Assembly (NCBI GenBank): GCA_947479085.1
Contig: CANJYB010000016.1
Location: forward strand, 1 to 64,000
Direction of reading: 5' to 3'
DNA: 64,000 nt
Source of the DNA: Bacteroidota bacterium
GTDB taxonomy: Bacteria > Bacteroidota > Bacteroidia > 2-12-FULL-35-15
A model generated the notes under the pieces. The model saw nothing but the letters and a program-made list of their open reading frames with translations, made no database searches and was not told the origin of the DNA. How positions within the stretch are numbered: the stretch's first letter is position 1; each line of letters begins with the position of its first letter. This document shows positions 18,118 through 57,676 of the stretch, piece after piece. The translations under genes were made by a program, and so were the position numbers.

Positions 18118-18387
18118 ATGACGGAAAGACAGAAGAATTTTAACAAATGGAAGCGAATGGTGCGCGAGAGCAACGCGATGGTGCGCGAACGAAACCGAAT
18201 GGTGCGCGAGAGGGTCGCGATGGTTCGCCAGAGCAACGCAACGGTGCGCGAGAGCAACGCACTGGTGCGCGCGAGTATCGCGATGATGCGCGCGAGTATG
18301 GCACTGGTTCGCGAGAGCAACGCGATGGTGCGCGAAGGCAACGCACTGAAAAATGCGGGTAACCGGTTGTTTCTATTTGAAATGTGA
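18118..18387 (+). CDS. heptad-repeat mini-protein (MVRESNA repeats)
   Basis: An 89-residue, strongly basic protein. It opens MTERQKNFNKWKR, then runs through nine tandem heptads of the form (M/L/T)(V/M)R(E/A/Q)xxA, ending LKNAGNRLFLFEM. All units are exactly 21 bp. The hydrophobic/charged pattern suggests a long helix or coiled coil. It lies alone on the plus strand between minus-strand genes. No clear promoter or Shine-Dalgarno sequence is seen, as is common in this phylum. The opposite strand is also open (17961-18413), but it would encode an improbable Arg-Leu-Ser-rich hydrophobic chain, so the plus strand is favoured. The array is much richer in G and C than its surroundings. It could instead be non-coding. 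Confidence 0.45.
   Translation: MTERQKNFNKWKRMVRESNAMVRERNRMVRERVAMVRQSNATVRESNALVRASIAMMRASMALVRESNAMVREGNALKNAGNRLFLFEM
18157..18345 (+). repeat. 21-bp tandem repeat array A
   Basis: Nine consecutive 21-bp units, first unit ATGGTGCGCGAGAGCAACGC plus G, with scattered substitutions and no indels, so frame is kept throughout. Units differ mainly at codons 1, 4, 5 and 6, which is the variation expected if a heptad is under protein-level constraint. Confidence 0.95.
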
Positions 18388-35351: not shown

Positions 35352-36140
35352 ATGAGCGAACTAAAAGTAACAACAATGGCAGACTACCTTGCAAAAGGTG
35401 AAGTACCTGAAATTTTATTTTGGGTGGGCTGTGCAGGAAGTTTTGACGACAGGGCAAAGAAAATAACAAAAGCCATTGTAAAAATTTTAAACCATGCCAA
35501 TGTAAAGTTTGCTGTTTTGGGTACAGAAGAAAGTTGCACTGGCGACCCGGCCAAACGTGCCGGAAACGAATTCCTGTTCCAGATGCAAGCAATGACCAAT
35601 ATTACTGTACTTAACGGATATGAAATAAAACGAATTGTTACCGGTTGCCCTCATTGTTTTAATACTCTTAAAAACGAATATCCTTCTCTTGGAGGTAATT
35701 ACGAGGTGGTTCATCACACACAGTTGATACAGGAATTATTAAACTCAGGAAGAATTAAAATAGAAGGAGGCAGTTTTAAGGGAAAAAAAATCACCTTTCA
35801 CGACCCTTGCTACCTTGGCCGAGCCAACGATGTGTACGAAGCCCCGCGGCAGGTAATGATAAACCTGGATGCAGAACTTACTGAAATGAAACGCAGCCGT
35901 GCCAATGGATTATGCTGTGGTGCCGGTGGAGCTCAAATGTTTAAGGAAGCCGAAAAAGGGGATAAGGAAGTAAACATTGAACGAACGGAAGAAGCACTTG
36001 CTCTTAATCCGGATATAATAGCTGTGGGATGTCCTTTTTGCAATACAATGATGACTGATGGGGTAAAAAACTTTAACAAGGAACAAACGGTAAAAGTTCT
36101 TGATGTAGCTGAACTAATTGCACAGGCAAAGGATTTATAG
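35352..36140 (+). CDS. (Fe-S)-binding protein with CCG domains
   Basis: A 262-residue soluble protein with two cysteine-rich CCG-type domains of the heterodisulfide reductase subunit B / GlpC / LutA family. First domain: WVGCAGSFDDRA (about 22), ESCTGDPAKRAGNEF and RIVTGCPHCFNTLKNEY. Second domain: ITFHDPCYLGRANDVYEAPRQV, then GLCCGAGGAQMFKEAEKG (the CCG motif), then AVGCPFCNTMMTDG. All Cys of both motifs are present, so it can carry non-cubane or [4Fe-4S] clusters. It probably accepts electrons from the membrane Fe-S protein encoded just upstream. Start at the ATG at 35352. Confidence 0.93.
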   Translation: MSELKVTTMADYLAKGEVPEILFWVGCAGSFDDRAKKITKAIVKILNHANVKFAVLGTEESCTGDPAKRAGNEFLFQMQAMTNITVLNGYEIKRIVTGCPHCFNTLKNEYPSLGGNYEVVHHTQLIQELLNSGRIKIEGGSFKGKKITFHDPCYLGRANDVYEAPRQVMINLDAELTEMKRSRANGLCCGAGGAQMFKEAEKGDKEVNIERTEEALALNPDIIAVGCPFCNTMMTDGVKNFNKEQTVKVLDVAELIAQAKDL

Positions 36141-36679
36141 AAGTTTAAGGTGTTTCTTTAAATTCCCATACTTTTTCCCTTTCTTTCTAACATTTTTTAT
36201 AATCTTCCTATACTTTTCTTCAAAAACCCTAACCTTATTTTCAAAAACCCTAACCTTTTTCTTTACGTTCCTATACTTTTTTCAAATCTTCCTATACTTT
36301 TTCCGAAATCTTCTAGGAAAAAATGGAAATCTTCTGGGAAAAATTCAAAATCTTCTGGGAAAAAATGAAATTCTTCTAGGAAAAAATCAAAATCTTCTAG
36401 GAAAAAATCAAAATCTTAGGGAAGAATTGCCAAAAAGTATAGGAAGATTTGAAAAAAGTATAGGAAAGTAGAAATAAAGTATGGGAAGATTTAAAGAAAG
36501 GATGGGAAAATGCAGAGAAATTAGGGGAAGATGAAGAAAGAGGATGTAAGTATAAAGTTTAACTAAACGACTATGCATTTTTAAGGCGATTCCAATCGGC
36601 TCAGTCGAATAGGAATTTCATAAACTTTTATACAAATAGGAATTACAGTTTGATTATAAATCAAAGAATTGGATTTGCT
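36141..36679. other. gap holding the broken 21-bp repeat locus
   Basis: About 540 bp between convergent genes. It is almost filled by repeats with 21-bp period (36220-36524), described separately. No intact gene is supported; the plus-strand frame 36118-36471 starts by TTG inside the upstream gene and encodes an improbable Phe/Leu run. Confidence 0.6.
36220..36524. repeat. 21-bp tandem repeat array B with inverted halves
   Basis: Three zones, all with 21-bp period. Left (36220-36302): CAAAAACCCTAACC and CCTATACTTTTTTCAAATCT units. Centre (36306-36410): five units of the form AAATCTTCT(A/G)GGAAAAAAT plus two bases. Right (36432-36524): GAAGATTTGAAAAAAGTATAG-type units. Left arm 36268-36302 and right arm 36432-36466 are a perfect 35-bp inverted repeat. 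Read on the plus strand, the right part is heptads EDLKKVW, ESRNKVW, EDLKKGW and ENAEKLG, ending in a stop, with one TAG replacing a Trp codon. So it looks like a degenerate heptad-repeat gene that was partly inverted and duplicated. Confidence 0.85.
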
Positions 36680-37261
36680 TTAAAACTTCAGCAGTTCTTC
36701 ATAAAGCTCTTTTAAAGGAAGCCCCATCACATTGAAGTAAGAACCTTCTATTTTTTCAACCGCAATATAGCCTATCCATTCCTGTGCACCATAAGCTCCG
36801 GCTTTGTCGTAAGGATGAAAGTTTCGGATATAATATTCTATTTCCTCCGGGGAAAGGTTTTTGAAATACACATTAGTAGCTGCATAAAAGGAAATAACTT
36901 TTTCTTTCGATTTCAGACAAACTCCTGTAAACACTTTATGCATTTTACCGGATAACAAGGTAAGCATCCGAACAGCATCTTCATAGTTTTCCGGCTTGTT
37001 TAAAACCTTGTCACCAATCCATACTATTGTATCGGCAGTTATAACAATAGTATTGTAATTTAATTCTTTATCAAATGCATTTGCTTTTTTTTCGCATAAA
37101 TAAAGAGGAATTTGTTCTGCTTTTAAATCTTCAGGAAAACTTTCATCCACCTCTTTGCTTACTACTTCAAATTCGAGCCCAAGATCTTTCAATAAAAATT
37201 GTCTTCTTGGAGATTTGGATGCAAGAATAAAATGATACTTTTTTAGTTCTTCAAAATGCAT
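36680..37261 (-). CDS. maf: Maf family nucleoside triphosphate pyrophosphatase
   Basis: A 193-residue Maf-like protein that hydrolyses the alpha-beta phosphate bond of non-canonical or surplus nucleoside triphosphates to monophosphates, clearing modified nucleotides. Family landmarks: ILASKSPRRQFLLKDLGLEFEVV (12-35) with the phosphate-binding SxSPRR, DESFPEDL, YLCEKKANAF, ITADTIVWIG (the catalytic Asp) and the C-terminal NFHPYDKAGAYGAQEW, then GSYFNVMGLPL. All are present and length is normal. It is the last gene of a long minus-strand run, 17 nt after the UbiA prenyltransferase gene. Confidence 0.95.
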   Translation of the reverse strand: MHFEELKKYHFILASKSPRRQFLLKDLGLEFEVVSKEVDESFPEDLKAEQIPLYLCEKKANAFDKELNYNTIVITADTIVWIGDKVLNKPENYEDAVRMLTLLSGKMHKVFTGVCLKSKEKVISFYAATNVYFKNLSPEEIEYYIRNFHPYDKAGAYGAQEWIGYIAVEKIEGSYFNVMGLPLKELYEELLKF

Positions 37262-48935: not shown

Positions 48936-49223
48936 CTATGTTTCTATGAGCCTATGTGGTAAAAGTACTTCTATTTCATCCTCCGATTCACTACCAACTA
49001 CCTCCGATTCAGTACCAACTACCTCCGATTCACTACTAACTACCTCCGATTCTGTACCAAGTACCTCCGATTGTGTATCAACTACCTCCGATTGTGTACC
49101 AACTACCTCCGATTCAGTACCAACTACCTCCGATTGTGTACCATGTATCTCCGACACCCTTTTTTTTCCTTCCGAAACCCTTATCCCACTTAGCTCAGCT
49201 CGTTTTATGCCGATTTGGCGCAT
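48936..49223 (-). CDS. heptad-repeat mini-protein (GTESEVV repeats)
   Basis: A 95-residue acidic protein. It opens with ATG (MRQIGIKRAELSGIRVSEGK) and then runs through about eight heptads of the form (V/S/D)(G/D/S)T(E/Q)SEV, ending SEDEIEVLLPHRLIET. All units are 21 bp. The opposite strand is also open (48907-49278, Thr/Ser/Asp heptads) but starts with TTG; the minus frame has an ATG and a better-mixed start, so it is preferred. The repeated VVGTESE pattern suggests a helix or repeated strand with an acidic face. No promoter or Shine-Dalgarno site is evident, so coding status is uncertain. Confidence 0.4.
   Translation of the reverse strand: MRQIGIKRAELSGIRVSEGKKRVSEIHGTQSEVVGTESEVVGTQSEVVDTQSEVLGTESEVVSSESEVVGTESEVVGSESEDEIEVLLPHRLIET
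48980..49147. repeat. 21-bp tandem repeat array C
   Basis: Eight consecutive 21-bp units starting CCTCCGATTCACTACCAACTA, with only a few substitutions (for example GATTGTGTACC) and no indels, followed by a truncated ninth copy. Confidence 0.96.
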
Positions 49224-57253: not shown

Positions 57254-57676
57254 TTAATTAAAATGAAAAAAGAAAAACACTACCGCTGCATACGATTTTG
57301 GAATACCGCTGGCACTGCCAATGCTGCTTCCCGAACTGTTGCGAACAGTACCATTCGATTCTATTTTACCAATACTGCTTCCTGATTCGTTTCTAACGGT
57401 TCCGTCTGATTCTATTTTACCAACACTGCTGCCGGAACTGTTACGTATCGTTCCATCTGAATCTATTTTACCAATGCTGCTTCCTGAACTGTTGCGAATA
57501 GTGCCATTGGATTCTATTTTACCAACACTACTTCCTGAACTGTTACGAATGGTGCCATCCGATTCTATTTTTCCATTGCTACTTCCGCTTGAGCTTCGGA
57601 TATCCTGAGCGTGAAGGGTTGATATGCCAATTAATAGCATACATACTGTTGCGATACTGAATGTGATTTTTTTCAT
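57254..57676 (-). CDS. exported protein of tandem 17-residue beta repeats
   Basis: A 140-residue protein with signal MKKITFSIATVCMLLIGIST (cleavage after LHAQ). The mature part is five consecutive 17-residue units of the form NSSGSS(V/I)GKIESDGTIR, plus a partial sixth, then GSASGIPKSYAAVVFFFFHFN. The pattern resembles '4-fold beta flower'-type Gly/Ile/Asp repeats. The units are 51 bp and nearly identical at DNA level, so the array may change in copy number. The hydrophobic FFFF ending is unusual for a secreted protein. A -7 element TACATTTG is at 57720-57727. Function unknown. Confidence 0.75.
   Translation of the reverse strand: MKKITFSIATVCMLLIGISTLHAQDIRSSSGSSNGKIESDGTIRNSSGSSVGKIESNGTIRNSSGSSIGKIDSDGTIRNSSGSSVGKIESDGTVRNESGSSIGKIESNGTVRNSSGSSIGSASGIPKSYAAVVFFFFHFN
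57290..57600 (-). repeat. 51-bp tandem repeat inside the 17-residue-repeat gene
   Basis: About five 51-bp units encode the 17-residue repeats. The coding units differ mainly at the S/V/I, N/D and I/V positions. Confidence 0.88.

Follow-up and report, generated by a model that had tools for sequence, protein, structure and literature searches.

A palindromic element of 21-bp units belongs to a genome-wide class of intergenic repeat arrays in one Bacteroidota clade

The repeat element described here lies between two genes in a 64,000-nucleotide stretch of a Bacteroidota bacterium genome (the window). It is non-coding DNA, and a member of a genome-wide class of intergenic tandem-repeat arrays. 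The class is probably satellite-like, consisting of non-coding arrays with fast turnover, whose ruler corresponds to two helical turns of DNA.

The element in the window and its second copy

The original prediction placed a block with a 21-bp period at positions 36220-36524. The period was found to be present, far above chance, and the repeat block stood, whereas its limits did not; those common to a second copy in the same genome define a wider element, at about 36155-36551. Its parts, for which no strand is assigned, and the flanking genes are as follows:

36155-36551: whole element, a long imperfect palindrome on a 21-bp period (limits common to the second copy, G000:C4:80400-80809, minus strand)
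36163-36267: left outer part, 21-bp units in inverted orientation, TTCCTATACTTTTTTCAAATC type
36268-36302: left arm of the perfect 35-bp inverted repeat
36306-36417: central part, five units of 21 bp, AAATCTTCTAGGAAAAAATCA (the second copy has a single extra 21-bp unit)
36432-36466: right arm of the perfect 35-bp inverted repeat
36467-36551: right outer part, 21-bp units, GGAAGATTTGAAAAAAGTATA type; this part had been read as EDLKKVW
35352-36140, plus strand: flanking gene, cysteine-rich CCG-domain protein
36680-37261, minus strand: flanking gene, Maf-like protein

The two arms, as proposed, are exact reverse complements over 35 bp, which is also the maximal perfect extension; the longest perfect inverted match in the controls was at most 14 bp, both in column-permuted arrays and in Markov shuffles. 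The five or so central units expected between the arms correspond to a TRF array of 5.3 copies at 36306-36417, and further 21-bp arrays were called at 36213-36259, 36268-36313, and 36420-36508. Longer inverted arms of 86 nt, with 77% complementarity, enclose 107 nt, and the description of the block as an inverted duplication of 21-bp units proved correct. RNA structure prediction bore out the anticipated long hairpin fold, with a z-score of -5.4 compared to dinucleotide shuffles, and of -5.8 compared to column-permuted arrays (0 of 40 permutations were as good). The flanking genes are convergent, as had been noted.

The second copy, about 400 bp in length and 85-86% identical, is located on another contig of the same genome (G000) in the opposite orientation. 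It is flanked by genes for a DUF3108 protein and for tryptophan 2,3-dioxygenase (TDO), unrelated to the flanks of the window copy. The alignment of the two copies contains a single gap, among the central units, and its length is exactly 21 bp. The copies differ at four positions of the paired arms; in the C4 copy, three of these changes disrupt a pair and the fourth leaves a T-G pair, without any compensation. A third hairpin array in this genome, built of unrelated units, lies between TrmA and IlvE on contig C26, and the fold z-scores of these three elements compared to column-permuted controls range from -5.8 to -6.4. A further relative of the window element, the third array of its kind, was found between genes in the related genome G015, without inverted arms. 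When 84,980 species genomes were scanned with an exact IUPAC pattern, a single MAG matched, the G015 record, and no match indicated a phage or plasmid origin of the window element. An assembly error at this locus is unlikely, because the second copy is diverged and lies on a different contig, and comparable arrays are present in other genomes.

The block had been interpreted as a heptad gene, inverted and duplicated in place, with a single TAG in the EDLKKVW frame of the right half. This frame actually contains two TAG stops, and stops are present in all six frames of both copies (counts for single frames range from 2 to 10 in the window element, and from 3 to 10 in the C4 copy), so that no open frame runs through the repeats. 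No intact coding version was found; the related G015 array is intergenic. Pooled analysis of 31 arrays, from G000 and its relative G015, revealed no codon-phase bias of unit variation (Fisher p = 0.94), and open frames were about as frequent as expected by chance, with 21 arrays having one, compared with 19.4 expected with columns permuted. The stops, the codon-phase test, and the open-frame test together led to the rejection of a heptad gene, at this locus and across the class.

A class of arrays with one spacing

In 400 kb sampled from G000, 83% of the 11-mers repeated within 130 bp recur at multiples of 21 bp. The same measure gives 72% in the window and 91% in G015, but 3-16% in G010, G009, and G011. 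The pooled excess match over 29 arrays was +0.31 at lag 21, +0.47 at lag 42, +0.27 at lag 63, and +0.43 at lag 84, and approximately zero at all other lags, including 7, 10, 11, 20, and 22; inside arrays, it was -0.02 at lag 7 and -0.03 at lag 14. Since these 29 arrays exhibit no 10-11-bp sub-periodicity, the spacing does not stem from curvature directed by the sequence, and A-tract curvature at 10-11 bp was rejected for want of a lag signal.

The clade, represented by draft assemblies that may have collapsed array lengths, provided 43 arrays of at least 126 bp. Of these, 14 belong to a 42-bp type, and several of the 14 are without any 21-bp sub-repeat (m21 0.06-0.27), indicating that the spacing is not merely inherited from one 21-mer. 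The GC content of the 43 arrays ranges from 0.25 to 0.64. Most sampled arrays have private units, with no sequence relative among the others. Three 42-bp arrays, L112 11201-11425 (G000), L117 11030-11516 (G015), and L225 11569-11805 (G012), contain a common CACCTYC..(G)TATA-AAA motif, and may form a single family in a set of arrays that are otherwise private. L108, which is among the 43, has a period of 126 and lies in a long ORF; it is probably coding.

The sample of G000 (473 kb, about 11% of the genome, with genes called as simple ORFs of at least 100 aa) contains 27 strong arrays, and the density over the clade is about 60 per Mb; extrapolation gives an estimate of about 250 arrays in the 4.28-Mb genome. 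Although 86% of the sample is covered by ORFs of at least 100 aa, nearly all class arrays lie outside long ORFs. The few arrays scored within ORFs are in short ones (123-210 aa), whose frames may be kept open by the repeat itself. Array contexts (19 co-directional, 3 convergent, and 2 divergent) resemble the genome background (134, 27, and 40, respectively), and a preference for convergent genes was rejected; as most class arrays lie between co-directional genes, the convergent setting of the window element is incidental.

Two further arrays in the window, likewise without an assigned strand, are:

18157-18344: array with the 21-bp unit ATGGTGCGCGAGAGCAACGCG, probably of the same class
48980-49154: class array with the 21-bp unit CCTCCGATTCAGTACCAACTA

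The first comprises 9 copies with a GC content of 0.64, readable as MVRESNA heptads on the plus strand, and probably belongs to the non-coding class, because it has no codon-phase bias, and several of its frames are open. The second contains 8.3 copies, readable as VVGTESE heptads on the minus strand, and exhibits no hairpin excess (z = +0.8), which indicates that the 21-bp period occurs without dyad symmetry. The window also contains 51-bp repeats at 57318-57586, in a 140-aa minus-strand ORF with a signal-like start; these repeats, of about 17 aa (GKIESDGTIRNSSGSSV), look truly coding.

Hairpin potential exceeded that of column-permuted controls in 20 of 31 arrays (z below -1), often with 0 of 40 permutations as good, and opposed arms or self-complementary units are directly readable in many arrays. 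About one third of the arrays have no such excess, indicating that dyad symmetry is common, rather than universal. Compensatory changes between units were not above shuffles in any of 17 arrays, and thus provided no evidence for selection on RNA structure. No intrinsic transcription terminator (a short stem followed by a T-tract) was found in 36100-36700, and searches of Rfam gave no match above the gathering score, only sub-threshold hairpins of the miRNA type. The 42-bp hairpin array downstream of the CCG-domain gene in G015 (L066 2303-2558) maintains a constant stem, TATATTGC/GCAATATA, while its loop block swaps between units, from CACCAAAA to AATTGAAT.

Distribution and turnover among relatives

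The arrays are concentrated in a clade of six species (G000, G005, G015, G004, G012, and G034), which has a support of 0.999 in a tree of three proteins. All six members contain arrays, with 46 strong arrays in 763 kb, compared to one in about 690 kb for the rest of the genus (Poisson p = 4e-17), and one in 318 kb for other genera. The sole array outside the clade, but within the genus, is at a contig end in G027, where contig C23 of a fragmented assembly starts inside a 21-bp array (L228, 1-162). Arrays may break assemblies, and hence be under-counted in draft genomes.

The positions of the arrays are not conserved between close relatives, whose corresponding gaps have no array, or one that is unrelated or degenerate. 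The gap between TrmA and IlvE is about 705 bp in G000, compared to 79-92 bp in G015, G004, G012, and G034. Similarly, the gap between DUF3108 and TDO is about 815 bp in G000, compared to about 115-135 bp in G005, G004, and G024, and in G015 it measures about 605 bp and carries a degenerate array of 21-bp period. The region downstream of the CCG-domain gene contains an unrelated 42-bp array in G015, and no array in G005; a Maf gene beside the CCG-domain gene was not found in the other relatives examined. In the samples of G035, G002, G008, and G034, heptamer arrays (7/14-bp) are frequent in some array-poor relatives. The 21-bp clade is mostly without them, and G034 has both kinds.

Origin of the 21-bp spacing

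The satellite-like reading is supported by the whole-unit copy difference, the private units, the restriction to one clade, the recent gain of arrays where relatives have empty sites, and the lack of a coding signal. Arrays would arise in intergenic DNA, and would change in length by whole units of 21 or 42 bp, a step directly shown once, by the one-unit difference between the two copies. They would stay internally homogeneous and lose resemblance to one another, while keeping the spacing; opposed arms would probably result from fold-back template switching, or from inversion within an array. B-form DNA is the expected substrate of the ruler, as a length of 21 or 42 bp is common to units that are unrelated in sequence and GC content, and coding constraint was undetected. 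No integer below 21 bases completes a whole number of B-DNA turns (21 = 2 x 10.5). Most likely, units would slip or exchange unequally in register with the helix, or else be bound or recombined by a protein along one helical face, and the process, apparently confined to one clade, would be recent or still active. Several points count against this explanation: neither a generator nor a binding protein was identified, about one third of the arrays have no excess of hairpin potential, a 10-11-bp sub-periodicity is absent, and pure slippage should affect genes too, yet few arrays lie within long ORFs. More tentatively, a clade-specific enzyme or protein might build or maintain hundreds of two- or four-turn-ruled arrays, and favor dyad-symmetric units, which would constitute a bacterial satellite-DNA system.

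The exact spacing of 21 or 42 bases is not explained by the known repeat classes with which it was compared. Eukaryotic satellite DNA keeps its unit length while its sequence turns over, is homogeneous within an array, and forms higher-order dimers. The arrays share the kept unit length, the homogeneity within arrays, and the dimers (42 from 21), but are short (150-670 bp), lie in compact bacterial gaps, and would be ruled by two helical turns rather than by the nucleosome. In plasmid iterons and phased operators, a DNA-binding protein recognizes helically phased repeats of about 21 bp. The spacing of the arrays is similar, but hundreds of chromosomal loci with differing units are involved, and no adjacent initiator gene was established. 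A CRISPR array was rejected, since the units abut without spacers.

Intergenic arrays of heptamers (7-nt) have a patchy, lineage-specific distribution in Cyanobacteria, Beggiatoaceae, and Bacteroidetes, where some of them enlarge gaps that are shorter in close relatives (PMC4679880); heptamers are the most abundant intergenic tandem class, and are widespread in prokaryotes (PMC6344855). The arrays described here are likewise intergenic, tandem, and patchy in their lineage-specific spread, but have a period of 21 or 42, and no lag-7 excess inside arrays. Rather than one recurring heptamer, they have units unrelated between arrays, commonly with dyad symmetry and opposed arms. A heptamer origin was rejected, because slippage would give lags of 7, 14, and 28, which are absent inside arrays. 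REP elements are palindromes of a common sequence family, with a tag tetranucleotide (GTAG or CGTC) and RAYT transposases (PMC3733652). The resemblance to REP/BIME sequences lies in the extragenic position, the palindromic character, and the recurrence within one genome; the differences are the unrelated units, the long arrays of exact period, and Y1 transposases that do not track the arrays. Few similarities between arrays, and no association with Y1_Tnp, were detected in the comparison with the REP/BIME and RAYT system. In the open-licence papers searched, heptamer arrays and REPs were found, but not a class with a 21-bp ruler.

Among the alternatives, phased operator or structure sites for a putative clade-specific DNA-binding protein, with a role in the nucleoid, partition, or silencing, are unlikely. 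Dyad-symmetric units two turns apart would place bound dimers all on one face of the helix, and the unit sequence would vary if the protein reads structure, or has several specificities. The exact 21/42-bp spacing, the dyad symmetry above permuted controls in most arrays, and the intergenic location in one clade only are as expected for such sites. However, no motif is common to the arrays, their positions are not conserved in close relatives, which would be odd for essential sites, and a candidate protein was not identified.

Dispersal by a transposase, as a family of mobile elements (REP/RAYT, MITE, or reverse-transcriptase product), would explain why the window element occurs twice with unrelated flanks and has a third relative in G015, as well as the sites that are empty in relatives. 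This origin is nonetheless quite improbable, as most sampled arrays have no sequence in common with the others, and no common ends or target duplication were found in the gap sequences compared among relatives. Y1 transposases were rejected as the generator, since Y1_Tnp is equally present in array-rich and array-poor genomes, and a reverse transcriptase (retron/DRT) was rejected because RVT_1 is absent from the array-rich G000, G015, and G004, and from G034.

Very improbable, too, is a structured RNA or dsRNA source, in which read-through hairpins would be processed, or would act as terminators or 3′ stabilizers of mRNA. Strong hairpins are predicted, and the element lies closely 3′ of a stop codon; against this, compensatory changes are absent in the 17 arrays, three of the four arm changes in the C4 copy break pairs, no terminator-like site was found, and some arrays have no hairpin potential. 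In addition, A-form RNA, with about 11 bp per turn, would predict periods of 22, 33, or 44, not 21. A decayed heptad (coiled-coil) gene that underwent inversion and duplication in place is extremely improbable: EDLKKVW heptads can be aligned to the right half (E = 2e-8, with 2 TAG), but 21 = 3 x 7 makes any open frame look like heptads, and the stops in every frame of both copies, the unbiased codon phase and chance-level open frames of the 31 arrays, the many unrelated units among the arrays of this genome, and the failure to find an intact coding homologue all argue against it.

The unit lengths of tandem repeats are normally varied. In this clade only, nearly all short-range repeats have one exact 21-bp spacing, in mostly unrelated sequences. 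This period is easily mistaken for that of heptad-repeat proteins, and calls for caution in annotation. The spacing points either to helix-quantized DNA slippage, or to a helical phase maintained by a protein; judging from the papers found, both would be new for bacteria.
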